Source: Denitratisoma sp. DHT3
Lineage (GTDB): Bacteria; Pseudomonadota; Gammaproteobacteria; Burkholderiales; Rhodocyclaceae
Length of the DNA: 64,000 nucleotides
Assembly: GCF_007833355.1 (NCBI RefSeq)
Contig: NZ_CP020914.1
Coordinates: 1,846,047-1,910,046 of the forward strand
Direction of reading: 5' to 3'
Of this stretch, positions 40,245-56,789 are shown in pieces. A program made the position numbers and the translations under genes. Numbering within the stretch: position 1 is the first letter of the stretch; every line of letters begins with the position of its first letter. The notes beneath the pieces are model-generated. The model did not search any database and was not told the DNA's origin. It worked only from the letters and a program-made list of their open reading frames with translations.

Positions 40245-40487
40245 ATGAGAACTGTAGGTCAGCGCAAAGAGCGCCCCATTAGCCTTCTTGCGTCTGGCAC
40301 CCTCCTGGCCGAGGGCGCTCGATTCAACGATGAGATGCATCGGTTGCCTACGGGCGACACGACATTCATTCCCAAAGGCGTGTATCGCTTCAAGACACAC
40401 GAAGACGCCTACCGGCATCAGCTTGACTGTGTGGCCAAGGGAATGGCAAAAGTTGCATTGGAGCGAGTACATGGACGAAACGGATGA
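40245..40487 (+). CDS. Small cassette protein, copy 1 (partner of nucleotidyltransferase)
   Basis: This 80-residue protein of unknown function has the core SGTLLAEGARFNDEMHRLPT, GDTTFIPKGVYRFKTHEDA and LDCVAKGMAKVALER. A very strong AAAGGAGG precedes the ATG. It overlaps the nucleotidyltransferase start by 17 nt. A paralogue with the same partner is at 56074-56301. The small-upstream, larger-downstream coupled layout is typical of toxin-antitoxin pairs, and this member would be the candidate antitoxin; that is inference. GC content is lower than in neighbouring genes. Confidence 0.75.
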   Translation: MRTVGQRKERPISLLASGTLLAEGARFNDEMHRLPTGDTTFIPKGVYRFKTHEDAYRHQLDCVAKGMAKVALERVHGRNG

Positions 40488-40968
40488 ATATTGTCGTCCG
40501 GCGTCCTTGGAAGACCTGAAGGCGCTGATTGAGTCATTGAATCGACAGCAAGTCGATTACCTGCTCATTGGTGGGTATGCCTTGTTTGTGCATGGCTACC
40601 ATCGGGCCACGACGGACATTGACGTACTGGTTCCGGCAACAGTGGAATCGGGGGTCAGAGTCAAGGCGGCGTTGATGGTGTTACCTGATCAGGCCGCAAA
40701 GGACTTGGAGCCGGAGTGGTTCACGGAAGGTGAAAACATTCGGATTGCCGATGCCTTCCTGGTCGATGTCATGCTGAATGCGTGCGGCGAAACGTACGAC
40801 ACGCTCAAGCAATATGCCGTGACCGTAGACCTGGAGGGCACTCCCGTTCGAACGGTAAGCCTTGAAGGGCTTTTGCGGACAAAGCAAACCATGCGCGACA
40901 AGGATGTGGCAGACAGGCACATTCTGGAGCGAGCACTGAAACTGTTCAAAGAACGATCCAAGGAATAG
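40471..40968 (+). CDS. Nucleotidyltransferase-fold protein, cassette copy 1
   Basis: The 165-residue protein carries the minimal nucleotidyltransferase signature: LLIGGYALFVHGYHRATTDIDVLVP, that is GG followed by DxD, so catalytic carboxylates are kept. A C-terminal segment RTVSLEGLLRTKQTMRDKDVADR resembles AbiEii-like and DUF6036-like proteins, some of which are toxins. The copy at 56301-56789 is highly similar by eye. It starts inside the 3' end of the small gene and is followed by a strong terminator, making a self-contained unit. Confidence 0.82.
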   Translation: MDETDEYCRPASLEDLKALIESLNRQQVDYLLIGGYALFVHGYHRATTDIDVLVPATVESGVRVKAALMVLPDQAAKDLEPEWFTEGENIRIADAFLVDVMLNACGETYDTLKQYAVTVDLEGTPVRTVSLEGLLRTKQTMRDKDVADRHILERALKLFKERSKE

Positions 40969-40978
40969 GCCGTGACCT

Positions 40979-41010
40979 CAAAGAGCCTCCGCACCGCGGA
41001 GGCTCTTTTC
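40979..41010 (+). terminator. Intrinsic terminator after cassette copy 1
   Basis: AAAGAGCCTCCGC-ACC-GCGGAGGCTCTTTT forms a perfect 13 bp stem with a triloop and a short T run (40979-41010). It ends the cassette transcript and lies before the convergent sensor kinase gene. Confidence 0.9.
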
Positions 41011-41098
41011 CATTGTGGGCGTGGAACCATGCTTCTTGCGTTCTGTGTCCTCTGTGGCTTGCAGTACGGTTTTCACTCGCGCCGGCCGAATTCCCGGA

Positions 41099-42442
41099 TT
41101 ACGACCCCCGACCCTGACCGGCGCCGGCGAAACTCACCCGTACCGCCAGCCCCCGCCCGGCGGGGCCGTCGGCCAGCGCCAGCCGTGCGCCGTGCAGTTC
41201 GGCGATGCGGGCGACGATGGACAGGCCCAGGCCGGAGCCGCTTTCGCCGCTGCCGGCGATGCGATAAAAACGGTCCAGCACCTGCGCCCGCTCTTCGGCC
41301 GGGATGCCGGGCCCCTGATCGACGACGGCGAGCGCCGCGACGCCATCGGCGCCGCGCTCCAGCACGACCCGCACCTGACTGCCCGGCGGGCTGTAGCGCA
41401 CCGCGTTGTCGAGCAGATTGCGCAGCAGCACGGACAACAGGACCGGCTGCCCGAGGATCGGCAGCGGCGGCCCCTCCTCCAGGACCAACTCGATGCCCCT
41501 CGCCAGCGCCTGGGGCGCGCTGCGCGCCACCGCCTCGGCCGCGCAGGCGCGCAGCTCGCAGTCGATCAGGCCGGCGCCGCGGCTGCCGCTGTCGAGCCGG
41601 GCCAGGGTCAGCAACTGCTCGACCAGGTGGGTGGCCCGATCCGTCGCGGCGACCACATTGGCCAGCGCCCGCCGCCGCTCGTCCTCGTCCCGGCTGGCCT
41701 GCGCCACCTGGGCATGGGTGCGCATCGCCGCCAGCGGCGTGCGCAGTTCGTGGGCGGCATCGGCGGTGAAGCGGCGCTCCTGCTCCATGGAGCGGGCGAT
41801 GCGTCCCAGCAGGCCGTTGAGCCGTTCCAGGATCGGCCGCAGCTCGCCCGGCGTCCCGGCCAGGGGGATCGCGTCGAGCCGGTCGGGGGAACGCTGGCCG
41901 ATCGAATCCGCCAGCCGCGACAGCGGCGCCAGGCTGCTGCGGATCAGCAGAGTCAACGCCAGGACCAGGAGCGGCAGGGCCAGGGCCAGCGGCTTCAACA
42001 ACTGGCGCGCCAGTTCGCTGGCCACCGCATGGCGCGCATCATGCGCCTCGCCCACCTGGATCAGTTGCCGCGGCGCCACCCCGCGCAGGCTGTACACCCG
42101 CCACGCGGCGCCCCCGATCCGCGCGTCGGAAAACCCCTCGGCCACCGGCGACAGCGGCGCATCGGGCGCCGCCCTGGAGTGGACCCGCAAATGCCCATCC
42201 TCCCAGACCTGGAACGCCACCTTGCGCGCATAGTGATGGGTGGGCAGATGCTCCACCCCCGCCGCCCCGCCGTCGCCGACGAAGGCCGCGAGCAGGGCCG
42301 CCGTCTGCGCCAGATGGGCGTCGAACAACTCGTCGGCCTCGTGGATCGCCTTGCGCCAGGCCAATGCGCTCAGGGCGACCCAGATCACCAGCACGATCGC
42401 CAGAGTACCGAGCAGAAGCCGCAAGCGCAGCGTGTTCTTCAT
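41099..42442 (-). CDS. Sensor histidine kinase, QseC-like
   Basis: The 447-residue membrane kinase has transmembrane helices at about 7-27 and 150-170 around a periplasmic sensor domain, a HAMP-like linker, a HisKA box with phospho-His in AAHELRTPLAAMRTHAQV (near residue 235), and a HATPase domain (LLRNLLDNAVRYSPPGS; VVDQGPGIP; GSGLGLSIVARIAELHG). The style matches QseC/TctE kinases. Its partner regulator is 350 bp upstream on the same strand, separated by repeats. The signal is unknown. Confidence 0.9.
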   Translation of the reverse strand: MKNTLRLRLLLGTLAIVLVIWVALSALAWRKAIHEADELFDAHLAQTAALLAAFVGDGGAAGVEHLPTHHYARKVAFQVWEDGHLRVHSRAAPDAPLSPVAEGFSDARIGGAAWRVYSLRGVAPRQLIQVGEAHDARHAVASELARQLLKPLALALPLLVLALTLLIRSSLAPLSRLADSIGQRSPDRLDAIPLAGTPGELRPILERLNGLLGRIARSMEQERRFTADAAHELRTPLAAMRTHAQVAQASRDEDERRRALANVVAATDRATHLVEQLLTLARLDSGSRGAGLIDCELRACAAEAVARSAPQALARGIELVLEEGPPLPILGQPVLLSVLLRNLLDNAVRYSPPGSQVRVVLERGADGVAALAVVDQGPGIPAEERAQVLDRFYRIAGSGESGSGLGLSIVARIAELHGARLALADGPAGRGLAVRVSFAGAGQGRGS

Positions 42443-42462
42443 GGTTCAGCGGGCCGTCAAAG

Positions 42463-42507
42463 CAAACCACGGCGACACGCCGGGCACGGCGAAATCTTCC
42501 GCGTCGT
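42463..42507 (+). repeat. Segment A of the composite repeat, copy 2
   Basis: ACCACGGCGACACGCCGGGC and ACGGCGAAATCTTCCGCGTC directly precede palindrome copy 2, matching the segment at 19951-19992. Confidence 0.6.
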
Positions 42508-42576
42508 GTAGGAGCGGGCCATGCCCGCGACCAGCGCATCGTCGACCACCGGGTCGCGGGCATGGCCCGCTCCTAC
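42508..42576. repeat. 69 bp palindromic repeat, copy 2
   Basis: The 23 nt arms are identical to the other two copies (left arm begins GTAGGAGCGGGCC, right arm ends GGCCCGCTCCTAC); only the 23 nt centre differs. It lies between the QseB-like and QseC-like genes. Confidence 0.8.
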
Positions 42577-42783
42577 ATGCAGGGCTTCGACAAGCTCAGC
42601 CCGAACGGGTGGTAATTGTCCAGCGCTGCCCCGACAGAGCTTTTCCGCCGCGCCGTCGCAAGGAAAAGCGGCACGCGGCGCCAGCCGCAACCTATCGGTA
42701 GCCGCGACAGCGCTTCCCGTGATATCGAGCGTAGCGAGCCGACTCGAACCCCCCGGAGGGGGGCGAAGGGGGGCGAGCCAGAC
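42577..42783 (+). repeat. Long-form dispersed repeat between regulator and kinase genes
   Basis: After a short GGCTTCGACAAGCTCAGCCC motif (about 42583-42605), of a type common in many genomes, comes a long-form copy from about 42637: AGAGCTTTTCCGCCGCGCCG, GGAAAAGCGGCACGCGGCGC, CAACCTATCGGTAGCCGCG, GATATCGAGCGTAGCGAGCC and a G-rich end 11 bp before the regulator stop. Together with segment A and the palindrome it makes up the 352 bp gap. Confidence 0.75.
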
Positions 42784-42794
42784 CCCAAGCCTTC

Positions 42795-43454
42795 TCATGG
42801 CCTGGGCACCAGATACCCAACCCCGCGCACGGTGCGGATCAGGTCCGGCGCCAGCTTGCGGCGCAGATGATGGACATGGACCTCCAGGGTGTTGGAGCCC
42901 ACTTCCTCGCCCCAGGGATAGAGCTTGGCCTCCAACTGGGCGCGGGTCAGCACCGTGCCGGCGTTGAGCAGCAGCTCGTGCAGCAGGGAGAACTCGCGCG
43001 GCGAGAGTTCCACCGGCCGGCCTTCCCAGGTGACGGAACGCGCCGCCGGGTCCAGCTCCAGGGCGCCATGCACCAGACACGGCGCCGCGGCGCCGGCGGC
43101 GCGGCGCACCAGGGCACGCAGGCGGGCCGCCAGCTCGCCCAGATCGAAGGGCTTGATCATGTAATCGTCGGCGCCGCCGTCGAGGCCGGCGATCACGTCC
43201 GCCGGGGTGTCGCGGGCGGTCAGGATCAACACCGGCAATACCGAACCGCTCTCGCGCAGGCGGCGCAGCAGGTCCAGGCCGCCCAGCCGCGGCAGCCCCA
43301 GGTCCAGCACCAGCGCCGAGAACGGTTCGGCCTGCAAGGCCGCCAGACCGGCCACGCCGTCCTTCACCCATTCGACCTGGAAGCCGGCCTGGCGCAGGCC
43401 GGCCGCGATGCCTTCGCCCAACAAAGAATCGTCCTCGACGATCAGAATCCGCAT
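42795..43454 (-). CDS. OmpR-family response regulator, QseB-like
   Basis: The 219-residue regulator has a receiver domain (MRILIVEDDSLLGEGIAAGL, phospho-Asp in LVLDLGLPRLGG at about residue 51, Lys in MIKPFDLGEL) and a C-terminal winged helix (LVHGALELDPAARSVTWEG; TLEVHVHHLRRKLAP; IRTVRGVGYLVP). It is the probable partner of the downstream QseC-like kinase. The two genes usually touch in such systems. Confidence 0.92.
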   Translation of the reverse strand: MRILIVEDDSLLGEGIAAGLRQAGFQVEWVKDGVAGLAALQAEPFSALVLDLGLPRLGGLDLLRRLRESGSVLPVLILTARDTPADVIAGLDGGADDYMIKPFDLGELAARLRALVRRAAGAAAPCLVHGALELDPAARSVTWEGRPVELSPREFSLLHELLLNAGTVLTRAQLEAKLYPWGEEVGSNTLEVHVHHLRRKLAPDLIRTVRGVGYLVPRP

Positions 43455-43460
43455 TTGGGC

Positions 43461-43645
43461 TCGCTCCCCTTCGCCCCCGCCGGGGGGGGAAGAATTTGGC
43501 TCACCCCCCTTCGCCCCCCTCCGGGGGGTTCGAGTCGGCTCGCTATGCTCGATATCACGGGGAGCGCTGTCGCGGCACCGATAGGTTGCGGCTGGCGCCG
43601 CGTGCCGCTTTTCCTTGCGACGGCGCGGCGGAAAAGCTCTGTCAA
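43461..43645 (-). repeat. Long-form dispersed repeat (minus) upstream of the QseB-like gene
   Basis: On the plus strand it shows two G/C-rich right ends in a row (about 43461-43528), then GGCTCGCTATGCTCGATATC, the CACCGATAGGTTGCGGCTGG core, GCGCCGCGTGCCGCTTTTCC and GGCGGAAAAGCTCTGTC. Orientation is opposite to the copy on the other side of the regulator gene, so the gene is flanked by inverted copies. Confidence 0.75.
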
Positions 43646-43668
43646 TGAAACGCGGATTGAATCACTAC

Positions 43669-43777
43669 CCGCTCGGGCTGAGCCTGTCGAAGCCTGTCCT
43701 GAGCCAAGACGAAGGGCCTGTCCTGAGCTTGACGAAGGGCCTGTCCTGAGTCTCGCCGAGGGGCTCAGTGCGAACGG
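43669..43777. repeat. Tandem CCTGTCCTGAGC/GACGAAGGG-type repeat
   Basis: A unit of about 23-30 bp containing CCTGTCCTGAGC and CGAAGGG recurs three to four times between the repeat at 43461-43645 and the permease stop. The motif is complementary in part to the one at 42583-42605 and belongs to a very widespread class of bacterial intergenic repeats. Together the two stretches fill the 352 bp gap before the permease gene. Confidence 0.6.
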
Positions 43778-43806
43778 ACTTGATCCGCGTTTCCTTGGCA
43801 ATAGAC

Positions 43807-46299
43807 TCACAGTGCCTCCCGCAACACTTGCAACGGGCTGCCCGACAGCGCCTTGCGGCTGCCCAGCAGGCCGGCGGCCAGCACCAGGACGAGGCCCAGC
43901 AGCACGCCGGCGAAGAGCAGCCGGGCGTCCGGCGCATAGGGCAGATGGAACACCAGCCGCGCCAGGAGCATGCTGATCAGGCTGGCGCCGATGCCCGCCA
44001 GGAGGCCGGCGGTCAGGCCCAGCGCGGCGAACTCGGCGGCGAGCGCCTGACGCAGTTGCGGCCCGCGCGCACCCAGGGCGCGCAGCACCGCCAGTTCCTG
44101 CGCGCGCTCGTCGGCACTGGACTGGAGCGCGGCATACAGCACCGCCAGCCCGGCCAGCAGCGAAAAACCGAACACCGCCTGCACGGCGCGGGCCACCTGG
44201 TCCAGGGTGTCCTGCAACTGGCGCACCACGCTGGCCACGTCGATCACCGTCAGGTTGGGCAGCGCCCGCACCAGCGCGTCGACGAAGCCGCCCTGTTGCG
44301 CCGGCAGATGGAAGCTGGTGATGTAGCTGACCGGAAAACCCTCCAGCATCCCCGGCGCGGCGATGACGAAGAAATTCACCCGCATCGAGTCCCAGTCGAG
44401 CTTGCGCAGGGAGGTGATCGGCGCGGCGATGGTGTTGCCGGCGATGTCGTAGGTCAGCACGTCGCCCAGCTTGAGGCCCAGGGTCTCGGCCAGCCCCAGC
44501 TCCACCGAGAACGCCGGGCTGCCGCCGGCGCCGTGCCAATGCCCGGCCTGGAGCCGGTTGCCGTCCGGCAGCCGGTCGCCCCAGGAGAGGTTGAATTCCC
44601 GATCCATCAGGCGCTGCGCCCGTTCGTCGGCGTAATCCGCCGGCCCCGTCGGCCGGCCGTTGATGGCCACCAGCCGGCCACGCACCATCGGCTCCAGGAA
44701 CGGCGGCGCCAGGCCGGCGGCGCGGAAGCGGGCGTTCAGCGACTCGCGCTGCTCGGGCTGGATGTTGATCGCGAAGCGGTTGGGCGCGTCCGCCGGCACC
44801 CGACTTTTCCACGCCGCCAACAGGTCGTCGCGGGCGACGGTGATCAAGAGCAGCGTGGTCAATCCCAGCCCCAGCGCCAGGGCCTGGATCAGGCTGCCCG
44901 CCAGGCGCCGGCGCAGGCTGGCCAGGCCGTAGCGCCAGCCGATGCCGCCGCCGTGGCGCAGCGGCCCGAGCAGCGCCAGCAGCAGCCGGGCCAGCGCGCC
45001 GTAGAGCAGGAAGGCGGCGGCGAAGCCGCCCAGCACGATGCTGCCCAGCGTCACGTCGCCCGCCACCCAGAACATCAGGCCGGCCAGGGCGGCGGCGCCC
45101 AGGAACCAGACCGCCAGCGAGACCGGCTCCGGCCCGGCGGTCTCCCGCCGCAGCACGCGCAGGGTGGACACCCGGCGCAATCGCAGCAGCGGCGGCAGGG
45201 CGAAACCGACGACCAGGGTCAGACCGATCGCCAGGCCCTGCGCCCACGGCGTCCAGGAGGGCGGCGGCAGGGCCTCCGCCACCAGACCCGCCAGTAGGCG
45301 TTGCAGCAGGGCCTGCACGCCATAGCCGGCGACGGTGCCGGCCAGCGCCAGGACGAGACCGAAGGCGACGAAGGCGCCGCCATGGATCAGCAGCACCTGC
45401 CGGCTGCTGGCCCCCAGGCAGCGCAGCACCGCGCAGCCGTCGAGGTGGCGGCGCATGTAGCGGCGCGCCGCCAGCCCCACGGCGACGGCGGCCAGCACCA
45501 CGGCCAGCAGCGCCGCCAGGCGCAGGAAGCGCTGTGCCCGCTCCAGCACCTGGCGCACTTCGGGACGGGCGTTGTCCATGGTTTCGAGTTTCTCGCCGCG
45601 CTCCAGACGCGGCTCCATCCACTGGTGGAACGCCGCCACCGCCGCCATTCCCGTCGGCGCCTTGCCCGCCGCCAGATGCAGGTGCCAGGCGATGCGGCTG
45701 CCCGGCTGGACCAGGCCGGTGGCGGACAGGTCCGCCTGATTCATCAGCACGCGGGGACCGAGGGCCAGCAGGTTCAGGCCGCGCTCCGGCTCCAGGGTCA
45801 ACAGCGCGGCGATGCGCAGCTCCCGCGTTCCCACCCGCAGCGTGTCGCCCACGGCCAGGCCGAGGGCGGAGAGCAGACGCTCATCCACCCAGACGCTGCC
45901 GGACGCCGGCACCCCGGCCACGGGCGCGTCCGCCCGCCCCGGCGCGGACGCGACGCGCAGCGTGCCGCGCAGCGGATAGTTGGGAGAGACCGCCTTGATG
46001 TCGGCCAGATGGCTGTGCCCGCCGGCGATCACCATGCTGGGAAAGCTGGCGCTCTCTGCGACGGCCAGGCCCCGCGCCTGCGCTTCGCGCGCCACCGCCG
46101 CCGGCCAGGGATGGTCGGCCGACAACAACAGGTCGCCGCCCAGCAGTTCGTGGGATTGCAGCACCAGCGCCTGCTCCACCCGGTCGGTGAGGAAGGAGAC
46201 GCTGGTGAGCGCCGCCACCGCCAGCGCCAGGGCGAAGCCCAGCACGTTCAACTCCCCGGCCCGGGCGTCCCGGATCAGCATTCGCAGCATCAGCAACAA
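43807..46299 (-). CDS. FtsX-family ABC transporter permease, YbbP-like
   Basis: The 830-residue permease has the duplicated FtsX architecture: an N-terminal helix (about 20-40), a large periplasmic domain, two bundles of membrane helices (about 255-400 and 415-490), a second periplasmic domain, and three C-terminal helices from about 710 ending SRKALSGSPLQVLREAL. This matches the YbbP/LolC-like permeases that work with a small ABC ATPase to move lipoproteins or lipids. No ATPase gene lies next to it. The start could be TTG 46299, ATG 46290 or ATG 46281. A repeat array begins immediately upstream. Confidence 0.85.
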   Translation of the reverse strand: MLLMLRMLIRDARAGELNVLGFALALAVAALTSVSFLTDRVEQALVLQSHELLGGDLLLSADHPWPAAVAREAQARGLAVAESASFPSMVIAGGHSHLADIKAVSPNYPLRGTLRVASAPGRADAPVAGVPASGSVWVDERLLSALGLAVGDTLRVGTRELRIAALLTLEPERGLNLLALGPRVLMNQADLSATGLVQPGSRIAWHLHLAAGKAPTGMAAVAAFHQWMEPRLERGEKLETMDNARPEVRQVLERAQRFLRLAALLAVVLAAVAVGLAARRYMRRHLDGCAVLRCLGASSRQVLLIHGGAFVAFGLVLALAGTVAGYGVQALLQRLLAGLVAEALPPPSWTPWAQGLAIGLTLVVGFALPPLLRLRRVSTLRVLRRETAGPEPVSLAVWFLGAAALAGLMFWVAGDVTLGSIVLGGFAAAFLLYGALARLLLALLGPLRHGGGIGWRYGLASLRRRLAGSLIQALALGLGLTTLLLITVARDDLLAAWKSRVPADAPNRFAINIQPEQRESLNARFRAAGLAPPFLEPMVRGRLVAINGRPTGPADYADERAQRLMDREFNLSWGDRLPDGNRLQAGHWHGAGGSPAFSVELGLAETLGLKLGDVLTYDIAGNTIAAPITSLRKLDWDSMRVNFFVIAAPGMLEGFPVSYITSFHLPAQQGGFVDALVRALPNLTVIDVASVVRQLQDTLDQVARAVQAVFGFSLLAGLAVLYAALQSSADERAQELAVLRALGARGPQLRQALAAEFAALGLTAGLLAGIGASLISMLLARLVFHLPYAPDARLLFAGVLLGLVLVLAAGLLGSRKALSGSPLQVLREAL

Positions 46300-46302
46300 T
46301 TG

Positions 46303-46790
46303 GGTTCTCCCCCCTTCGCCCCCCTCCGGGGGGTTCGAGTCGGCTCGCTGCGCTCGATATCACGGGGAGCGCTGTAGCGACACCGATAGGTTGCGGCTGG
46401 CGCCGCGTGCCGCTTTCCCTTGGGGCGGCCCGGCGGGAAAGCTCTGTCGGCATTTCCTCCCTTCGCAATCCTCCGCGGGGTTCGAGTCGGCTCGCTGCGC
46501 TCGATATCACGGGGAGCGCTGTAGCGACACCGATAGGTTACGGCTGGCGCCGCGTGCCGCTTTCCCTTGGGGCGGCCCGGCGGGAAAGCTCTGTCGGCAT
46601 TTCCTCCCTTCGCAATCCTCCGCGGGGGACGCGTCGGCTCGCTGCGCTCGATATCACGGGGAGCGCTGTAGCGACACCGATAGGTTACGGCTGGCGCCGC
46701 GTGCCGCTTTCCCTTGGGGCGGCCCGGCGGGAAAGCTCTGTCGGCATTTCCTCCCTTCGCAATCCTCCGGCGGAAAAGCTCTGTCAAGGA
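46303..46790 (-). repeat. 147 bp tandem array of the long-form repeat, three units
   Basis: Three head-to-tail copies start at about 46334, 46481 and 46628 (equivalent bases exactly 147 bp apart). Each contains GTCGGCTCGCTGCGCTCGAT, ATCACGGGGAGCGCTGTAGC, CACCGATAGGTT(G/A)CGGCTGG and GGCCCGGCGGGAAAGCTCTG. Units are nearly identical, with single-base differences. Because 147 is divisible by 3, long frames run through on both strands, but they are not genes. Confidence 0.85.
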
Positions 46791-46810
46791 GGCACGGACG
46801 TTCTGACCTT

Positions 46811-46879
46811 GTAGGAGCGGGCCATGCCCGCGAACTGGTGGGCGGCAATGCGCTGATCGCGGGCATGGCCCGCTCCTAC
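46811..46879. repeat. 69 bp palindromic repeat, copy 3
   Basis: The arms are identical to copies 1 and 2. Here the composite is in reverse orientation: the tandem array and linker lie before it and segment A (46880-46922) after it on the plus strand. Confidence 0.8.
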
Positions 46880-47004
46880 AGGGCGAGGAGGGTTTTCGCC
46901 GTGTCCGCCGTGTCGCCGTGGTTTGCGGCTGGTGCCGCATGGCGCGTTTTCCCATCGTGGCCCTCGTGGGAAAGGCGGCCCGGCGGAGGCGCTGGTTTTT
47001 CACG

Positions 47005-47006
<2 letters not shown>
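46880..47006 (-). repeat. Segment A plus partial repeat, upstream of the radA stop
   Basis: On the plus strand GGGTTTTCGCCGTGTCCGCC and GTGTCGCCGTGGTTTGCGGC, then CCCATCGTGGCCCTCGTGGG and GCCCGGCGGAGGCGCTGG, end at TTTTTCACGCTAC, the reversed left terminus of the dispersed family. It reaches the 3' end of radA. With the preceding elements it fills the 705 bp gap between the permease and radA. Confidence 0.65.
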
Positions 47007-48372
<1,366 letters not shown>

Positions 48373-48373
48373 C

Positions 48374-49507
48374 TCAGCTCGCGCGCTCCACTACCACCAC
48401 CGGCACCCGCGCGGTCAGGGCGCACAACGGCTCGTAGCTGATGGTGCCGGCGGCGGCGGCCACTTCCTCCAGCGGCAGATGGCCAGCGGCGCCGTCGCCC
48501 CAGAGCGTGACCGGGGCGCCCACGCCGGCATCGGGCAGGTCGGTGAGGTCCACGCACACCTTGTCCATCGACACCCGCCCCACCAGCCGGCTGCGCCGCC
48601 CGGCCACCATCACCGGCGTGCCGCTGGGCGCGTGGCGCGGATAGCCGTCGCCGTAGCCGCCGGCGGCGATGCCGATCCGCATCGGCCCCGGCGCGACGAA
48701 GGCGCTGCCGTAACCGACGGCGTCGCCGGTCGCCAGTTGCCGCACCGCGAGCACCTCGCTCTCCAGGTTCATCACCGGTTTCAGGCCCAGGTCGGCGGCG
48801 CTGTGCAGCTCGGGGCAGGGCGAACAGCCGTAGAGCATGATGCCCGGCCGGGCCCAGTCGCCGGCGCCGCCCAGCGCCTCGGGGAAGCGCAGCAGCGCGG
48901 CGGAATTGGCCAGGCAGAGCGGCAAGCCGTCAGCCATGTCGGCGATGCCGCCCCGCAGCGCATCGAAGCGCGCCATCTGCCGGGCGATGCCGGCCGGCTC
49001 GTCGGCGTCGGCGAAGTGGGTCATCAGGGTGATGCCGGCGACCCGCGGCGAGGCCCGCAGCAGGGTCAGGGCCTGGCGGAAGTCGGCCGCGTCGAAGCCC
49101 AGGCGGTTCATGCCGGTGTTGAGCTTGAGATAGACCGGCAGGGGCTCGTTCAGATCCGCCAGCAGGGGCGAATCCACCAGCCAGCGCACCTGGGCCGGGC
49201 TGTGCAGCACAGGGATCAGCCGCAGGCGGGCAAACTGCGGCAGCTCATCCTCGCTGTAGAAGCCTTCCATCATCAGCAGGGGCTGGCGGATGCCGGCCGC
49301 CCGCAGCGTCTCGGCGCCATCCAGTTCCAGGAGCGCGAAGCCGTCGGCGACCCCGGCCAGCGCCTCCGCCACCCGCACTTGGCCATGGCCGTAGCCGTTG
49401 GCCTTGACCACGCACCAGAGGGCGGTGGCGCCGGCGTGGCGCCGGGCGACGGAATGATTGTGGCGCAGGGCCGCCAGGTCGATGCGGGCGCGTAAGGGAC
49501 GGGTCAT
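48374..49507 (-). CDS. alr: Alanine racemase
   Basis: Alr is a PLP enzyme supplying D-alanine for peptidoglycan. The 377-residue protein has the PLP-Lys motif VVKANGYGHG near residue 35, GYGSAFVAPGPMRIGIAAGG with the region of the second catalytic base, and VGRVSMDKVCVDLTDLP. The start is the ATG at 49507 (MTRPLRARIDLAALRHN). The alr-radA unit diverges from lplT, an arrangement seen in other betaproteobacteria. Confidence 0.96.
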   Translation of the reverse strand: MTRPLRARIDLAALRHNHSVARRHAGATALWCVVKANGYGHGQVRVAEALAGVADGFALLELDGAETLRAAGIRQPLLMMEGFYSEDELPQFARLRLIPVLHSPAQVRWLVDSPLLADLNEPLPVYLKLNTGMNRLGFDAADFRQALTLLRASPRVAGITLMTHFADADEPAGIARQMARFDALRGGIADMADGLPLCLANSAALLRFPEALGGAGDWARPGIMLYGCSPCPELHSAADLGLKPVMNLESEVLAVRQLATGDAVGYGSAFVAPGPMRIGIAAGGYGDGYPRHAPSGTPVMVAGRRSRLVGRVSMDKVCVDLTDLPDAGVGAPVTLWGDGAAGHLPLEEVAAAAGTISYEPLCALTARVPVVVVERAS

Positions 49508-49641
49508 GCTGGGAAGCGAAGGCGGGAAACGATTGGCAAGCCCGCAGTTTCTCACATACGGCGGCAGGCCAGGGTTCCCCTGCCCGCGTCAAGGTGATGG
49601 CTCTGCTTTCATGTTATAAACGCGGCTCTTCGAGCTTGCCC

Positions 49642-50907
49642 ATGACTCCCGGCTTCTACATCATCATGGCGGCGCAGTTTCTTTCCGCGCTCGCCGACAA
49701 CGCCCTGTTGATCGCCGCCATCGCCATCCTGCGGGATATGCATGCCCCGGCGGAATACGAACCACTGCTGAAAACCTTCTTCACTGTTTCGTACGTGGTC
49801 CTGGCCGCCTTCGTCGGCGCCTTCGCCGATTCGATGCCCAAGTGGCGGGTGATGTTCATCAGCAACGGCATCAAGGTCCTCGGCTGCGGCCTGATGTTCT
49901 TCGATGTCCACCCCTTGCTCGCCTACAGCGTGGTGGGCCTGGGAGCGGCGGCCTATTCGCCGGCCAAGTACGGCATCCTCACCGAATACCTGCCGCACCG
50001 CCTGCTGGTGGTGGCCAACGGCTGGATCGAGGGTCTGACGGTGATCGCCATCATCCTCGGAATCATGCTGGGCGGCGCCCTGATCAAGCCGGACATCGCC
50101 CAGGCCCTGCTCGCCTTCGACCTGCCGCTGATCGACACCGGCATCGACACGGTGAGCGAAATGAACCTGGCCGTGATCGGCATCCTCTATCTGCTGGCGG
50201 CCCTGTTCAATCTCTACATCCCCGACACCGGGGTGGACCACAAGCCGCTGAAGAAGAACCCGGTCTACCTGTTCCACGAATTCAACCACTGCCTGCGCCT
50301 GCTCTGGCGCGACCGGCTGGGACAGATCTCGCTGGCGGTGACCACCCTGTTCTGGGGCGCCGGCGCCACGCTGCAATTCATCGTGATCGAATGGGCCAAG
50401 ACGGCGATGAACATGGATCTTCCCCGTGCCAGCATGTTGCAGGGGGTCGTCGCCGTCGGCGTGGCCCTGGGCGCGGTGCTCGCCGCCAAGCTGATCACCC
50501 TGCGCCGCTCGGTGCAGGTGATTCCCCTGGGCGCCGCCATGGGCGCGGTGGTGCTGGGCATGATCTTCGTCCGCGATTACCACCTGGCCATCGGCCTGCT
50601 GGTGCTGATCGGCGTCCTTTCCGGATTGTTCGTGGTGCCGATGAACGCCCTGCTCCAGCATCGCGGCCACGTGCTGATGGGCGCCGGCCACTCCATCGCG
50701 ATCCAGAATTTCAACGAGAACCTGTCCATCCTGGTCATGACCGGCGTCTACTCGGCCCTGCTGGGGGCGGGTCTGTCGATCTACTGGATCATCGCCCTGT
50801 TCGGCCTGTTCGTCAGCGGCGCCATGCTGCTGGTACGCCAGCGCCACCTCGCCCACCAGCACCAGCACGACGACCTGGCGCTCCTGGAGCGCGAAGCAGG
50901 CCACTGA
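49642..50907 (+). CDS. lplT: Lysophospholipid transporter LplT
   Basis: LplT is a major-facilitator flippase moving lysophospholipids across the inner membrane for re-acylation. The 421-residue protein has about 12 hydrophobic helices and the family segments MAAQFLSALADNALLIAAIA, YSPAKYGILTEYLP, and LQHRGHVLMGAGHSIAIQNF. No acyltransferase domain is fused. The ATG at 49642 is preferred over an upstream in-frame start at 49594. Confidence 0.92.
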   Translation: MTPGFYIIMAAQFLSALADNALLIAAIAILRDMHAPAEYEPLLKTFFTVSYVVLAAFVGAFADSMPKWRVMFISNGIKVLGCGLMFFDVHPLLAYSVVGLGAAAYSPAKYGILTEYLPHRLLVVANGWIEGLTVIAIILGIMLGGALIKPDIAQALLAFDLPLIDTGIDTVSEMNLAVIGILYLLAALFNLYIPDTGVDHKPLKKNPVYLFHEFNHCLRLLWRDRLGQISLAVTTLFWGAGATLQFIVIEWAKTAMNMDLPRASMLQGVVAVGVALGAVLAAKLITLRRSVQVIPLGAAMGAVVLGMIFVRDYHLAIGLLVLIGVLSGLFVVPMNALLQHRGHVLMGAGHSIAIQNFNENLSILVMTGVYSALLGAGLSIYWIIALFGLFVSGAMLLVRQRHLAHQHQHDDLALLEREAGH

Positions 50908-50969
50908 TCAAGGGACGAGCCTCGGGAATCGAGATTGTTCACATCTTCACAAGCGCAAGGGAATGCACC

Positions 50970-51377
50970 ATGGAAAACCGGCCGCAATTCCTCCCGGTCC
51001 TGCGGGTGGGCATCGAACAGGTCGACCAGGAGCATCAGCGGCTGATCGAAATCGCCGGCCAAGTGTATGACAGCCTCGCCGCGAACGGCGCCGACGCCGT
51101 CGCCGCCGCCCGTGCCGCCATCGTCGAACTGCTCGACTACGCCGCCACCCATTTCGCCAGCGAAGAGGCGTTGATGGCGGCGGCGGGCTATCCCGAACTG
51201 GCGGCGCATCGGCAACTGCATGAGCAACTGCTGTCCCAGGCCCGCGACATGGCGCTTCGGGTCGAATCCGGCGACCCCTATGTGCCGGGGGAGCTGAACC
51301 GTCTCATCTACCACTGGATGGTCAAGCACATCCAGACCGAAGACCGGCGGTTCGGCGAGTTCGTCGCCGCACGCTGA
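50970..51377 (+). CDS. Bacteriohemerythrin
   Basis: The 135-residue protein is a single hemerythrin domain: LRVGIEQVDQEHQRLIEIAG, ATHFASEEALMAAAGYPELA, AHRQLHEQLL and WMVKHIQTEDRRF supply the His/Glu/Asp ligands of a di-iron O2-binding site. It has no membrane helix. Likely roles are O2 storage or sensing; the neighbours give no specific clue. GGGA precedes the ATG. Confidence 0.92.
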   Translation: MENRPQFLPVLRVGIEQVDQEHQRLIEIAGQVYDSLAANGADAVAAARAAIVELLDYAATHFASEEALMAAAGYPELAAHRQLHEQLLSQARDMALRVESGDPYVPGELNRLIYHWMVKHIQTEDRRFGEFVAAR

Positions 51378-51418
51378 CCGCGCCGGGCCAGGATCGGCCC
51401 GCGCCTCGGAGCGCGCCC

Positions 51419-51916
51419 TCAGAGCACCACGGGCCGATCCGGCAGCTCGTTGTGGTCGGGCCCGGCCACCGGGAAATGCCGGATCAGCAATTGCGCCGCC
51501 TGGTCCACGGCCTCCAGCGCGCCACGCCGGAAATCGCCGTCCCTGAAGGCCAGCTCCATGCCGCGGCAGATGAGGTCCCACGCCTCCTGCGACACCCGGG
51601 CGTCGATGCCGCGGTCGGCGAGGATTTCCACCCGCCGGTCCACCAGTTGCACATAGAGCAGGATGCCGCTGTTTTCCTCGGTGTCCCACACCCGCAAGCG
51701 GGAGAACAGCTCGGCCGCCCGCTGCCGCACCGATTCGCCGCGCCAGAGCACGGCCAGCGGCAAGGGCCCCTCGACGACGAAACGCAATTCGCCGCGATGG
51801 CCGGTTTCCGCCGCGCCGATCGCGGCCTCGATGGCGTCCAGCGTGGCCCGGTCGAAGGACCGACGCGCCCACCAGGCGGGCACCAGCAGATGTTTCAGCA
51901 GGCGTCGCAATTTCAT
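51419..51916 (-). CDS. TPM-domain protein
   Basis: The 165-residue protein has a TPM (TLP18.3/Psb32/MOLO-1) domain: IEAAIGAAETGHRGELRFVV, SGILLYVQLVDRRVEILADR, GIDARVSQEAWDLICRGME. There is no signal peptide. It is the third gene of a lemA-ygcG-TPM unit on the minus strand, 1 nt from the previous gene. This trio is widespread and of uncertain function, possibly linked to envelope stress. Confidence 0.85.
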   Translation of the reverse strand: MKLRRLLKHLLVPAWWARRSFDRATLDAIEAAIGAAETGHRGELRFVVEGPLPLAVLWRGESVRQRAAELFSRLRVWDTEENSGILLYVQLVDRRVEILADRGIDARVSQEAWDLICRGMELAFRDGDFRRGALEAVDQAAQLLIRHFPVAGPDHNELPDRPVVL

Positions 51917-51917
51917 C

Positions 51918-52811
51918 TCACCAACTCCCCGAGGCGCCGCCGCCGCCGAAGCCGCCACCGCCGCCGCTGAAACCACCGCCCCCGCCGCCGATGCCGCCCC
52001 GGCCTCCGCCCCCGGTCAGGGCGCCCAAGGCGATGTTGAGGCCGAACAGCGCCAGAAAGAGACCGACGCCGGCGCCGATCAGCGCGCCCATCACGGAAGC
52101 GGAAAGCAGCCAGCCGACCACGCCACCGCCGGCGGCCACCAGCGAGGAACCGACCAGGTTGCCGAGCAGCGTCCGCAGCAGGGCGCCACCGAGCGCGGCG
52201 GCGGCCAGCAGAAACAAGAACGTGCCTTCGCCGATGTCGCCAAGGCCACCCATATCACCGCCCCCATCGCCACCCGCAGCGCCGCCCGCGGGCGGCGGCA
52301 GCGCCTCGCCGTCGATCACCGCGCCGACCGCGGCCACGCCGGCCGCGAGGCCGCCGTAGTAATCGTCCGCCTTGAAACGGGGCACGATGGTCTCGCTGAC
52401 GATGCGCTTGGCGGTGGCGTCGTTGAGCGCGCCTTCCAGGCCGTAGCCGACCTCCAGGCGCACGCGACGGTCGTCCTTGGCGACGATCAGGATCACCCCG
52501 TCGTCGATGCCCTTGCGTCCCAGTTTCCAGGCCTCGGCCAGGCGGATGCCGAACTGCTCGATGGCCTCGGGCCGGGTGCTGGGCAACAGCAGAATGCCCA
52601 CCTGGGCACCCTTGGCCTGCTCGATCGCCGCCAGCGCCGCTTCGAGGCTGGCCTTCTGCTCGGCCGCCAGGGTGCCGGTCAGGTCCGTCACCCGCGCCTG
52701 GAGCGGCGGCAGCGGCTGGAGTCCGGCCTCGGCGCCGCTCTCGGCCGCCGCGACGTTCCAGCCAAGAACCGCCAGCAACAGCCAGCACAGGGCGAGCAGG
52801 CGCAACGGCAT
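51918..52811 (-). CDS. TPM-domain membrane protein, YgcG-like
   Basis: The 297-residue protein has a signal peptide (about 1-23), a periplasmic TPM domain (LQARVTDLTGTLAAEQKASL; GVILIVAKDDRRVRLEVGYG; DDYYGGLAAG), hydrophobic helices around 205-270, and a C-terminal Gly-rich tail that ends GGASGSW. The Gly/Phe-rich tail with terminal SGSW is characteristic of this family beside lemA. Confidence 0.9.
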   Translation of the reverse strand: MPLRLLALCWLLLAVLGWNVAAAESGAEAGLQPLPPLQARVTDLTGTLAAEQKASLEAALAAIEQAKGAQVGILLLPSTRPEAIEQFGIRLAEAWKLGRKGIDDGVILIVAKDDRRVRLEVGYGLEGALNDATAKRIVSETIVPRFKADDYYGGLAAGVAAVGAVIDGEALPPPAGGAAGGDGGGDMGGLGDIGEGTFLFLLAAAALGGALLRTLLGNLVGSSLVAAGGGVVGWLLSASVMGALIGAGVGLFLALFGLNIALGALTGGGGRGGIGGGGGGFSGGGGGFGGGGASGSW

Positions 52812-52817
52812 GGGCGC

Positions 52818-53420
52818 TTACTTCGCCGGCGCGGCGTCGAACTTGATCGCGGGCGGCGCGGAAATCGCCTTTTCGTCCTCCACGGCGAAATTGGCCTTGG
52901 GCTTCCAGCCCATCACCGTCGCCGTCAGGTTGTTGGGGAAGGTCCGCACCGAAATGTTGTAGGTCTTGACCGCCGCGATGTAGCGGTTGCGGGCCACGGT
53001 GATGCGATTCTCGGTGCCCTCCACCTGGGCCTGCAGGTCGCGGAAATTGGCGTCGGCCTTCAGTTGGGGATAGTTCTCCGCCACCACCAGCAGCCGCGCC
53101 AGGGCGCCGCCCAGCTCGCCCTGGGCCTGCTGGAACTTGGCGAAGGCGGCGGGATCGTTGACCAGTTCCGGCGTCGCCTTGAGGCCGGCGACATTGGCGC
53201 GAGCCTCGGTGACGCGGGTCAGCACTTCCTTCTCGTGCGAGGCGTAGCCCTGCACCACCGACACCAGGTTGGGAATCAGATCGGCGCGGCGCTTGTACTG
53301 GTTCAGCACCTCCGACCAGGCGGCACTCACCCCCTCGTCGTTGATCTGGATCTGGTTGTAGCCGCAGCCCGACAACAGGGCCGCAGCCAGGGCAATCACG
53401 GCGAAGAGACGAAAGCGCAT
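52818..53420 (-). CDS. LemA family lipoprotein
   Basis: The 200-residue protein has an N-terminal lipoprotein signal with lipobox LLSGC (Cys at 19), followed by the LemA helical core: YNQIQINDEGVSAAWSEVLN, QYKRRADLIPNLVSVVQGYA, AQGELGGALARLLVVAENYP, LQAQVEGTENRITVARNRY. It heads the lemA-ygcG-TPM unit. Function is unknown. Confidence 0.93.
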   Translation of the reverse strand: MRFRLFAVIALAAALLSGCGYNQIQINDEGVSAAWSEVLNQYKRRADLIPNLVSVVQGYASHEKEVLTRVTEARANVAGLKATPELVNDPAAFAKFQQAQGELGGALARLLVVAENYPQLKADANFRDLQAQVEGTENRITVARNRYIAAVKTYNISVRTFPNNLTATVMGWKPKANFAVEDEKAISAPPAIKFDAAPAK

Positions 53421-53510
53421 GGAAGGGTCCTCCGGAATGGGTCTATGAATGTCGTCGATATGGGGGGGCGGTCACGGTAACACAAGCATAGACACTTATT
53501 GGACATCGAA

Positions 53511-53930
53511 TCACGCCGACCATACGCCGATGCCGCTCTCAGCGGCAGCACGCTGCAAGGACTTGTCCCGAGTGGCCAACGGCAAACCGGTCGCCAATGC
53601 CGAGTCGAGGTAAAGCGCGTCGTAGCTGGTCAGGTGATAGCGCAACGCCAGGGCGTGCAATTCAAAAACCGACATCTGGGATTCCCGCCGCCGCACCGGC
53701 AGGCGCTGCAAATGACGGAGCAGTTGGACCGTCTTGTCGGAAGCGATCCGCCCGTGTCGTTCCAGTGACAGCAGAACGTTGAGCATCTCGACGTGCCACC
53801 AGCCGGGCACCACGGCAAAATTGTCGACCAGGGCATCCAGCGCCGCTTCCGTGTAGGCATCGGCCTGATCATCAAACAACCAGGCGATGCTGACAGAGCA
53901 ATCGACCACGTAAATATTCCTCATGGCCAT
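53511..53930 (-). CDS. PIN-domain toxin (VapC-like) of the second module
   Basis: The 139-residue PIN protein has VVDCSVSIAWLF with the first acidic residue, GWWHVEMLNVLLSLERHG with Glu, and the C-terminal LTSYDALYLDSALATGLPLA and TRDKSLQRAA. It resembles VapC proteins paired with Phd/MazE-type antitoxins. The start is in a TGATG overlap with the antitoxin; ATG 53930 or 53924 is possible. It is unrelated in detail to the PIN gene at 2973. Confidence 0.88.
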   Translation of the reverse strand: MAMRNIYVVDCSVSIAWLFDDQADAYTEAALDALVDNFAVVPGWWHVEMLNVLLSLERHGRIASDKTVQLLRHLQRLPVRRRESQMSVFELHALALRYHLTSYDALYLDSALATGLPLATRDKSLQRAAAESGIGVWSA

Positions 53931-54172
53931 CAACGCCGCCCCTCGGCAACGAGTTGGGCGATATCGAAACTCTCCACCCGATTGACGTGCCGAAATTCGC
54001 GCAAGGCGTCGATCGCCTGCCGCACATCGGCACGGGCAGCATCGCCTTGTGGAGGCCGAATCTCGGCCAGCGGCTTGCCACGCCGGGTCAGCACCACCAC
54101 CTCGCCTTCGGCCGCCGCCTGCGCCAACTGGCCGAGACTGGCTTTGGCTTCGAATAATCCGATCGTGATCAT
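53930..54172 (-). CDS. Phd/YefM-type antitoxin
   Basis: The 80-residue antitoxin has the Phd fold signature: MITIGLFEAKASLGQLAQAA, AEGEVVVLTRRGKPLAEIRP, then an acidic and basic helical tail for toxin binding. It precedes and overlaps the PIN toxin gene. In-frame sequence upstream of the ATG is dispersed repeat and is not part of the gene. Confidence 0.88.
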   Translation of the reverse strand: MITIGLFEAKASLGQLAQAAAEGEVVVLTRRGKPLAEIRPPQGDAARADVRQAIDALREFRHVNRVESFDIAQLVAEGRR

Positions 54173-54175
54173 AAT

Positions 54176-54194
54176 GAACAGTCCTGTTGAACAG
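54176..54194 (-). promoter_or_regulatory. Operator candidate upstream of the Phd-type gene
   Basis: A palindrome CTGTTGAACAG (54184-54194) and a half-site GAACAG (54176-54181) lie immediately before the antitoxin ATG. Phd-type antitoxins autoregulate through short palindromes at this position. Confidence 0.45.
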
Positions 54195-54204
54195 TATCGT
54201 AAGT

Positions 54205-54366
54205 TTAGCGTGAAAATCGAGTTTCTCCGCCGGGCCGCCTTTCCCACGATGGCCACGATGGGAAAAAGCGGCACGCGGCACCAGCCGCAACCTATCGGTG
54301 CCGCAACGAAGCATCCCCAAACATCCGAGCATAGCGAGCCATATCGAACCCCTCGAAGGGGGAGAA
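54205..54366 (+). repeat. Long-form dispersed repeat between the toxin-antitoxin pair and prfB
   Basis: TTAGCGTGAAAATCGAGTTT, CTCCGCCGGGCCGCC, GGAAAAAGCGGCACGCGGCA, CAACCTATCGGTGCCGCAAC, CCCCAAACATCCGAGCATAG and CGAGCCATATCGAACCCCTC, with a G-rich end. It is one of the most complete copies. A TATAAT -10 for prfB lies 18 bp beyond it (54384-54389). Confidence 0.78.
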
Positions 54367-54424
54367 CCCGAAACCGCCCCGCGTATAATTGCGCTCCTTT
54401 TTAGCCACAGCCGGAAACACCGCC

Positions 54425-55529
54425 ATGGAAGCCGAACGCCTGAACCAGATCGCCAACCGCATTGCCGACCTCAGCCAGCGGGACAATGAACTTCGGAGGT
54501 ATCTTTGACTTCGACGTCAAAGCCGAAAAACTCGCCGAACTGAACCGGGAACTGGAAGACCCGGCGATCTGGAACGACGCCGACCGGGCCCAGGCGCTCG
54601 GACGGGAGAAGAAATCCCTGGAAAACGTGGTGCTGGCGCTCGAATCCGTGGCCCAGCGGCTGAAGGACGGCGACGAACTGTTCGCGATGGCGCGCGAGGA
54701 AGGCGACGAGGACACCGTCGCCGCCGTGGAAGCCGATCTCGACGCGGTGGAGAAGGAAGTCGCCGGCCTCGAATTCCGCCGCATGTTCAACAACCCGGCG
54801 GACCCCAACAACTGCTTCATCGACATCCAGGCCGGCGCCGGCGGCACCGAAGCCTGCGACTGGGCCAGCATGCTGCTGCGCCAGTACCTGAAATACTGCG
54901 AGAAGAAGGGTTTCAAGGCCGAACTGCTGGAACAGACCGACGGCGACGTGGCCGGCATCCGCAGCGCCTCGCTGAAGGTGGAAGGCGAATACGCCTACGG
55001 CCTCTTGCGCACCGAGACCGGCGTCCACCGCCTGGTCAGGAAGAGCCCCTTCGACTCCTCGGGCGGCCGCCACACCAGCTTCGCCAGCCTCTACGTGTAC
55101 CCCGAGATCGACGACTCGATCGAGGTGGAGATCAACCCGGCCGACCTGCGTATCGACACTTTCCGCGCCTCCGGCGCCGGCGGCCAGCACATCAACAAGA
55201 CCGACTCGGCGATCCGCATCACCCACGCCCCGACCGGCATCGTCGTGCAGTGCCAGAACGACCGCTCGCAGCACCGCAACAAGGCCGAGGCCATGGCCAT
55301 GCTGAAGTCGCGCCTGTACGAACTGGAACTGCGCAAGCGCCAGGCCGAGGCCGACAAGCTGGAAGCCAGCAAGACCGACGTGGGCTGGGGCCACCAGATC
55401 AGAAGCTACGTGCTGGACCAGAGCCGCATCAAGGACCTGCGCACCAACGTCGAAATCTCCAACACCCAGAAAGTGCTGGACGGTGACCTGGACCCCTTCA
55501 TCGAGGCCAGCCTGAAGCAGGGCGTTTGA
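54425..55529 (+). CDS. prfB: Peptide chain release factor 2, programmed +1 frameshift
   Basis: RF2 recognises UGA and UAA stops and triggers peptide release. The first frame (54425-54508) encodes 27 residues ([20 protein letters not shown] then NELRRYL) and stops at an in-frame TGA. The main frame resumes at GAC 54507, giving about 367 residues in all. The main frame has [15 protein letters not shown] with the stop-codon-reading SPF and the catalytic GGQ in [19 protein letters not shown]. An apparent start at 54462 in the second frame is an artefact. The gene has its own likely -10 and is preceded by a repeat. Confidence 0.96.
54491..54509 (+). promoter_or_regulatory. prfB: prfB autoregulatory frameshift site
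   Basis: CTTCGGAGGTATCTTTGAC holds an internal Shine-Dalgarno-like GGAGG three bases before CTT TGA C. When RF2 is scarce the ribosome slips +1 on CUU and avoids the UGA at 54506-54508. The layout matches the E. coli site. Confidence 0.93.
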
Positions 55530-55589
55530 GAATCACAGGAAACAAGGGATGCGTTTACTTGATAGACTGAGCCGAGAGGAGATTCGTCC

Positions 55590-55838
55590 ATGGCAAGCAT
55601 TACATTCGACACCCTCAAATACGCGGAGCGACTGAAAGCAGCCGGTACCACGGAGAATCAGGCTAAGGCGAAAGCCAAAGCCCTGGCCGGCGCTTTCTCC
55701 GAAGCCATGGAGGCTCAGTTGGCGACCAAGACCGACATTTACCGTGTCGAGCGGGAATTGGTCGTACTCAAATGGATGACCGGCATCGTCTTGGGCGGAA
55801 TCATTGCCCTGATCATGAAGACATTTTTCCCTGCATAA
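55590..55838 (+). CDS. DUF1640-like coiled-coil membrane protein, copy 1
   Basis: The 82-residue protein has ITFDTLKYAERLKAAGTTEN, an Ala/Lys coiled coil, ATKTDIYRVERELVVLKWM, and a C-terminal transmembrane helix (TGIVLGGIIALIMKTFF). The layout resembles DUF1640/CCDC90-like proteins. A paralogue lies at 57116-57358 on the other strand. Function is unknown. Confidence 0.75.
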   Translation: MASITFDTLKYAERLKAAGTTENQAKAKAKALAGAFSEAMEAQLATKTDIYRVERELVVLKWMTGIVLGGIIALIMKTFFPA

Positions 55839-55868
55839 ACCAGCCCTTCTCTCTGAGAGGTACCCATC

Positions 55869-56060
55869 ATGGACGTATCGGCAATCGCTTCCCTCGCCAC
55901 CGAAATGGCGACCACCCGCACCGAGCAGGCCGCGCAGATCGCGGTGCTCAAGAAAGCCATGGAAATGCAGGGCCAGGGTGCCATCCAGTTGCTGACCGCA
56001 GCGACCCAGAGCTACAACAACCCGCCCAACCTGGGCAACAGCGTCGACGTCTTTGCCTGA
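55869..56060 (+). CDS. yjfB: YjfB family protein (putative motility protein)
   Basis: This 63-residue protein (MDVSAIASLATEMATTRTEQ...) matches YjfB, a small family annotated as putative motility proteins. The C-terminus is NPPNLGNSVDVFA and stop. A second copy of that terminus is found 750 bp downstream (56808-56849) beyond the inserted cassette. The stop overlaps a TTG in frame with the next small gene. Confidence 0.82.
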   Translation: MDVSAIASLATEMATTRTEQAAQIAVLKKAMEMQGQGAIQLLTAATQSYNNPPNLGNSVDVFA

Positions 56061-56073
56061 AAGGCAGGCCCCC

Positions 56074-56301
56074 GTGCGCATCGTCGGTCATCGTAAACAA
56101 CGGCCCATCACTTTCTCGGCATCTGCGAGCCTGCTATTGGAAGGGGCGCGCTTCAATGATGAAATTCATCGGCTGCCCACAGGTGGTACGACTTTCATTC
56201 CCAAGGGGGTTTATCGATTCATGACCCTCAAGGATGCCAACCATCACCAAGCAGATTGCCTGGCCAAGGGCATGGCAACAAAAGCGCTAGAACGCCCCTG
56301 A
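56074..56301 (+). CDS. Small cassette protein, copy 2
   Basis: The 75-residue paralogue of 40245-40487 shares RPITFSASASLLLEGARFND, EIHRLPTGGTTFIPKGVYRF and DCLAKGMATKALER. The GTG at 56074 aligns with the ATG of copy 1 (VRIVGHRKQRPI against MRTVGQRKERPI). The TGA overlaps the ATG of the nucleotidyltransferase gene (TGATG at 56299-56303). It starts 13 bp after the yjfB stop. Confidence 0.75.
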   Translation: MRIVGHRKQRPITFSASASLLLEGARFNDEIHRLPTGGTTFIPKGVYRFMTLKDANHHQADCLAKGMATKALERP

Positions 56302-56789
56302 TGGAAGAGTACAGTCGGCCGGCCACCCTGGAAGACCTGAAGGCGTTGGTTCGATCACTCAATCAGGAACATGCGGATTATCTGCTGATTGGCGGCTACG
56401 CTTTATTCGCCCACGGCTATCACAGGGCGACCACTGATATTGATATTCTGGTACCCCCAACCCAGGCAGCAGGACTAAAAATCCGGCAAGCGCTGATGGT
56501 GCTTCCTGACCAAGCGGCGAAAGATATCGATCCGACCTGGTTCGAGGAAGGTGAAAATATCCGGGTGGCAGATGCCTTTGTGGTCGACCTCATGCTCAAT
56601 GCCTGCGGAGAAACCTACGAGACCCTGAGCCAGTTCGCTGAAACCATTGACCTGGACGGTCTCCCAGTCCGCACCGTCAATTTGGAAGGTTTGCTGCGGA
56701 CAAAACAAACCATGCGGGACAAGGATGTGGCAGACCGCATCGTCTTGGAACGGGCACTAGAAGCGATCCAGCATCTCAGGCGGTCATAG
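56301..56789 (+). CDS. Nucleotidyltransferase-fold protein, cassette copy 2
   Basis: The 162-residue protein has the same GG...DxD core (LLIGGYALFAHGYHRATTD then IDILVP) and C-terminal LEGLLRTKQTMRDKDVADR as copy 1. The two are clearly paralogous over their full length, with near-identity around the active site and at NACGETY. GC content is below that of the surrounding genes, suggesting horizontal gain. A toxin-type nucleotidyltransferase is plausible but unproven. Confidence 0.82.
   Translation: MEEYSRPATLEDLKALVRSLNQEHADYLLIGGYALFAHGYHRATTDIDILVPPTQAAGLKIRQALMVLPDQAAKDIDPTWFEEGENIRVADAFVVDLMLNACGETYETLSQFAETIDLDGLPVRTVNLEGLLRTKQTMRDKDVADRIVLERALEAIQHLRRS

Follow-up and report, generated by a model that had tools for sequence, protein, structure and literature searches.

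A small protein paired twice with a MenT1/AbiEii-kind nucleotidyltransferase in Denitratisoma sp. DHT3: a putative toxin-antitoxin module

Why would a bacterium carry, at two places of the same genomic region, a very small gene whose frame runs into that of a nucleotidyltransferase (NTase)? We considered this question for a 64,000 nt-long stretch of the genome of Denitratisoma sp. DHT3 (contig NZ_CP020914.1, positions 1,846,047 to 1,910,046, forward strand), hereafter the window. A reading of the sequence alone had noted this two-gene cassette twice in the window and had proposed a toxin-antitoxin or defence-type module. Both pairs were found again, with the same coordinates and with overlapping frames: in copy 1 the small open reading frame (ORF) and the NTase share 17 nt, and in copy 2 the ATG of the NTase overlaps the TGA of the small ORF by 1 nt. 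As had been claimed, both proteins are conserved between the copies (72% identity for the NTase, 71% for the small protein) and the GG and TTDID motifs are intact in both NTases. The two-gene module is real and selected, and it looks mobile. We considered each unit to be a toxin-antitoxin operon, composed of an NTase toxin of the MenT1/AbiEii kind and a small antitoxin, with a probability of roughly 0.65; the overlap of the frames suggests that the two genes would be co-transcribed.

The pair is held together in other genomes. A scan with the small protein, with one genome per species, yielded 33 loci in Rhodocyclales and their relatives, Nitrospira, and metagenome-assembled genomes labelled Deltaproteobacteria, Desulfovibrionaceae and Gammaproteobacteria. 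In 31 of them an NTase match was directly downstream of the small gene, while in the other two (L012 and L038) at most the start of the NTase remains. In the opposite direction, we considered as strong any NTase match of at least 197 bits in the family sample (profile A4; 297 genomes, own genome excluded) or of at least 146 bits in the class sample (profile A6; 321 genomes). The small gene was just upstream of all 20 strong matches in the family and directly upstream of all 5 in the class. Weaker NTase matches without a small-gene match (12 rows in the family: G024 twice, G085, G103, G148, G023, G281, G284, G069, G257, G038 and G010; 27 rows in the class) belong to other branches; in the genus sample, G617 and further weak rows were likewise not counted. 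Some of these have partners of their own, a divergent PKGV protein for the first NTase of G024 and for G085, and other upstream partners for G103 and G617. Intact pairs nearly all overlap or abut, with a gap of 25 nt in L032. The small gene is thus tightly linked to the NTase, and a lack of linkage between the families, named by the sequence-only reading as damaging to its proposal, is not what other genomes show.

Both genes are also constrained. We compared 16 pairs by the ratio of nonsynonymous to synonymous changes, which was about 0.04–0.06 for the NTase and 0.06–0.23 for the small gene in pairs at a synonymous distance of about 0.1–1.3; for L049/L050, a nearly identical pair with very few changes, they were 0.53 and 0.34. 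Since these ratios are low at moderate divergence, neither frame is open by chance and, on this comparison, strong purifying selection acts on both genes at that divergence. Two further arrangements were seen among the loci: a divergent PKGV-type small protein with its NTase (L060:1244-1989 and L062:1501-2246), placed in both genomes between genes that read, by translation, as pyrG and kdsA, and a second, truncated NTase in tandem behind the intact pair of a Nitrospira (L029:4816-5121).

The kinship of the NTase to MenT/AbiEii toxins, suggested from its motifs, stood in part. MenT1 is its nearest relative by sequence and among its tied best folds, but its Pfam scores are below the cut-offs: for AbiEii (PF08843) copy 2 has 20.3 and copy 1 has 18.5 bits against a gathering score of 22.5, and for DUF6036 (PF19502) copy 1 has 21.1 bits against 23.6, copy 2 not being listed at E 1. 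In the wider set, at E 0.001, 26 of 61 NTases match PF08843 and 36 of 61 match PF19502, weakly and over the catalytic core. A profile of 62 relatives, searched against the Protein Data Bank (PDB), matched MenT1 at E 1.4e-15 and lincosamide enzymes at about 0.4, and a narrower profile still matched MenT1 at E 0.0014. The alignment to MenT1 spans the GG, the DxD, the third Asp and the C-terminal Lys/Asp motif, so that the NTase fold carries these elements as in MenT/AbiEii-type toxins. The AlphaFold2 model of the copy 1 NTase (pLDDT 91.1, pTM 0.85) retrieved a MenAT1 entry first with Foldseek, followed by TM1012; by VIA, MenT1 (13.3), TM1012 (13.1) and LnuA (12.7) were tied, with ANT(2'')-Ia (11.8) next.

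Several points weigh against a toxin. Because MenT1, TM1012 and LnuA are tied, the fold alone does not decide, and for this tie we lowered our probability from 0.66 to 0.65 and slightly raised that of a small-molecule enzyme. The superfamily does include antibiotic-modifying enzymes. Two full-length relatives, L009 and L021, have lost the first catalytic Asp, so that some loci are probably inactive. Finally, we infer the toxicity of the NTase from sequence, fold and genome context.

The best surviving alternative, which we nevertheless consider unlikely, is that the NTase modifies a small molecule, as an adenylyltransferase of antibiotics or metabolites does, and that the small protein stabilises it as a subunit or helps it to fold, with no toxin-antitoxin function. 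The fold tie is in its favour, but the profiles place MenT1 far ahead of the lincosamide enzymes. To our knowledge, antibiotic NTases such as LnuA and ANT(2'') have no obligate small partner and need no coupled small gene. This alternative also leaves unexplained the small genes kept after the loss of the NTase and the toxin-antitoxin neighbours, both described below.

For the small protein AlphaFold2 predicted, with moderate confidence (pLDDT 79.5, pTM 0.50), two helices (residues 18-31 and 52-77) around the conserved (F)IPKGVYRF; the family alignment also has a conserved Tyr and Thr/Ser. None of 55 small proteins matched any Pfam family at E 0.01, and thus none matched HEPN. Their profile found no PDB sequence up to E 10, in a set in which the presence of the MenA1 chain is unconfirmed, and the fold search of the PDB gave two meaningless rows (E 7.2 and 9.4). 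With the PADLOC models, 1 of 55 matched REase_II (E 0.0013) and 1 of 55 AbiEi (E 0.009). NCBIfam returned only weak matches to acyl-CoA synthetases, which we read as chance.

In the mechanism that we propose, the first gene encodes a 75-80-residue protein, with two predicted helices, a loop and no recognised DNA-binding domain, that would be made first, bind the NTase and cover its active site, probably via (F)IPKGVYRF. The second gene encodes a minimal NTase of DNA-polymerase-beta fold, of the MenT1/AbiEii kind. When free, this enzyme would transfer nucleotides to some target in the cell, in all likelihood the 3' ends of tRNA, and growth would stop.

If the NTase is the harmful member, the two genes may be expected to decay unequally. 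We considered the sampled genomes, own genome excluded, and strong NTases only. Intact pairs were found at 25 loci (19 in the family, 5 in the class and 1 more in one genus), including one, G066, whose NTase is cut by the contig end. At 9 loci the small gene is kept and the NTase is broken or lost (G119, G162, G107, G079, G148, G170, G499, G297 and G621; that of G148 continues in frame into the next gene), whereas no counted locus has an intact NTase and a lost small gene. Five loci in which both genes have decayed (G046, G056 C125, G185, G131 and G238) were excluded from this 9:0 count, whose chance is about 0.03 from gene length alone. The 33 loci found by the small protein (genome_contigs set) were not used here, given the way they were found and their overlap with the sampled genomes; they comprise 11 broken NTases, one locus with both genes broken (L035) and one cut by the contig end (L022).

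Some of the NTases seem to have been lost by deletion between short repeats: the junction in L014 has a 9-base overlap, and the small frame of G621 and of G170 continues into an apparent NTase tail. For this reason the asymmetry is only modest evidence that the NTase is harmful; it speaks more strongly against the small protein being a toxin. Repeated deletions within or across the NTase were also seen at L108, L130, L106, L063, L027, L034, L035 and L014, and the small frame of L108 and of L130 seems to continue into the C-terminal tail of the NTase at shared ALER/LERAL codons.

The same losses bear on a second alternative, also improbable and ranked below the small-molecule enzyme, in which the NTase is a regulatory switch acting on its small partner or on another protein, by a reaction like AMPylation or UMPylation, and not a growth toxin. 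The strict linkage and overlap of the genes, the strong selection on both and the conserved Tyr and Thr/Ser of the small protein would fit such a switch. Against it, the small gene is patchy (28 of the 297 family genomes) and absent from the genus-mates G022 and G083, and the NTase has repeatedly been lost by itself, which suggests that the enzyme is costly or can be dispensed with. Least of all do we believe in a reversed polarity, with the small protein as a toxin inactivated by NTase nucleotidylation, since, even though the NTase is the antitoxin in the HEPN/MNT pairs of type VII, in nine of the sampled genomes the small gene survives after the NTase has been broken or lost, which would be expected to be harmful, and none of the 55 small proteins matches HEPN or any other Pfam family at E 0.01.

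A toxin-antitoxin operon is also consistent with some of the neighbours. Seven loci, chosen by eye, have genes of PemK, PIN, RelB, ParE, HipA or HigB nearby, and all 10 of the proteins checked were confirmed. PemK was found at 3 loci, the cassette loci covering 369 kb in total, where about 0.08 would be expected given the 94 matches seen across 121 family genomes; this is an after-the-fact comparison in which the three genes had already been seen, the 69 loci are partly from outside the family, at least two locus pairs are the same place (L023/L039 and L022/L044) and the mean genome size was taken by eye. Therefore, of the two functions that had been proposed, toxin-antitoxin fits the decay pattern and these neighbours, while nothing points to phage defence. 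In fact, PADLOC matches of the NTases are limited to AbiEii-type models and PDC-M05A (27 of 61 match one AbiEii model at E 0.001, the best at 1.5e-6, copy 1 not at that level), which gives a defence role no direct support. Phage records had no match to the pair, and 20 and 5 stretches of viral contigs that fitted a pattern gave no confirmed case; a phage origin was rejected on these grounds.

The features of the two copies are reported in Table 1. For the ribosome-binding site claimed for it, copy 1 has a Shine-Dalgarno-like stretch of its own. The terminator claimed for it is a stable hairpin, but the 3' arm ends in TTTT with just one T past the stem, a weak tail, and the simple terminator scan did not list it. 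A simple scan gave no sigma-70-like promoter at either copy. The claim of a lower GC content is clear for copy 1 (0.55–0.56 against 0.65–0.77 in the surroundings) and weaker for copy 2, around which the whole 55.4–57.4 kb is low (0.54–0.58). An RNA antitoxin was sought and rejected, no Rfam family reaching its gathering score in 38000-58600.

Table 1. Coordinates in the window of the features of the two gene pairs.
Feature	Position	Strand	Description	Basis
Shine-Dalgarno-like stretch	40230..40239	+	GGAAAGGAGG, ends 5 nt ahead of the ATG of the copy 1 small gene	Read directly in the sequence
Copy 1 small protein	40245..40487	+	80 aa, ATG start, putative antitoxin with (F)IPKGVYRF	ORF, family alignments, AlphaFold2
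Copy 1 NTase	40471..40968	+	165 aa, putative toxin, GG...DxD...D...K...D..D, catalytic Asp pair D49/D51	ORF, AlphaFold2, fold matches
Terminator-like hairpin	40980..41008	+	13-bp stem, short T tail	Folding dG -23.4 kcal/mol, z -6.65
Copy 2 small protein	56074..56301	+	75 aa, GTG start, putative antitoxin	ORF, comparison with copy 1
Copy 2 NTase	56301..56789	+	162 aa, putative toxin	ORF, comparison with copy 1

At E 0.001 the 3.66-Mb own genome contains the two pairs, one distant NTase (C1:455699) and nothing further, and the genus-mates G022 and G083 are without both pairs. At the copy 1 site G083 has the same two flanking genes with other genes between them (a cyclic-nucleotide-binding-like and a chemoreceptor-like protein, to judge from their translations), which makes this site a variable spot. 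Synonymous sites are saturated between the copies, and in a tree whose bootstrap is not fully settled copy 1 falls within an Azonexus-type clade of 11 rows that has good support (100/98) and copy 2 is outside it, its placement unresolved; the two copies thus do not look like a recent tandem duplication, and this reading was rejected. The only plasmid record matched by the small protein is a conjugative Azospira plasmid, which carries the pair; the NTase matches this plasmid at 75% and has one other, distant match (31%), on a Miltoncostaea plasmid. A type IV CRISPR (csf) locus is some 4 kb away from the pair on pAZI09, the Azospira plasmid (L134:8771-18474).

Repeats were seen around both copies. 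Immediately before copy 1 (40065-40188) there is a dispersed repeat, about 120 nt long, which recurs at about 42633-42780, 43497-43643 and 46341-46737, with an inverted pair at 42.6–43.6 kb; scoring part of the candidates gave 15 or more additional copies in the own genome, and others in G083. Before copy 2, the 3' end (56018-56060) of a small gene that we take to be YjfB-like (ORF 55869-56060) recurs with 88% identity at 56807-56849, just past the NTase, a pattern that would fit a joint arrival of the cassette and a diverged copy of the end of the upstream gene.

Distant NTases have other tiny partners. At 31 such loci, about 20 have, by reading, a tiny ORF on one side that overlaps the NTase or abuts it, and none is listed for four; one partner resembles BrnA/CopG antitoxins, just under the cut-off, and that of L096 was left out of the comparison. 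The partners are of several unrelated sequence types, upstream or downstream (L076, L078, L079, L080, L083, L085, L093-L095, L119, L120 and L127). With slightly less than even odds, we suggest that the (F)IPKGVYRF proteins may be a new antitoxin family that places its loop in the active site of a minimal MenT1-like toxin and, jointly, that DUF6036-like NTases may be a large toxin superfamily swapping many unrelated tiny partners on either side. The present pairs connect a small unnamed protein family with a MenT1-like enzyme and offer a compact model of NTase toxins from an environmental bacterium; if the wider view were true, one enzyme core with many tiny overlapping partners would suggest that many toxin-antitoxin pairs are still unannotated.

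Among known systems, the closest is MenAT1 (Rv0078A/Rv0078B) of Mycobacterium tuberculosis, the best sequence match of the NTase and among its tied best folds. MenT1 shares the catalytic pattern GG...DxD...D...K...D, and MenAT1 is a toxin-antitoxin system of two genes (PDB titles 8an4 and 8an5), as we propose for the pairs in the window. The NTases in the window are shorter (162-165 residues against 196 in the MenT1 PDB chain), with an identity of 17-22%, and the small protein, whose profile matches no PDB chain up to E 10, gives no sign of homology to MenA1. MenT3/TglT (Rv1045), a larger enzyme of 287-290 residues, belongs to the same comparison; MenT3 acts on tRNA ends. As for AbiEii and DUF6036, the weak matches are over the catalytic core, the NTases in the window have roughly half as many residues as the PADLOC AbiEii models have positions (294-344), and an AbiEi-like partner is not seen here, apart from the single weak match. 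LnuA and ANT(2'')-Ia have a much weaker sequence tie than MenT1, and HEPN/MNT systems need a HEPN-domain partner, unlike the small proteins described here.
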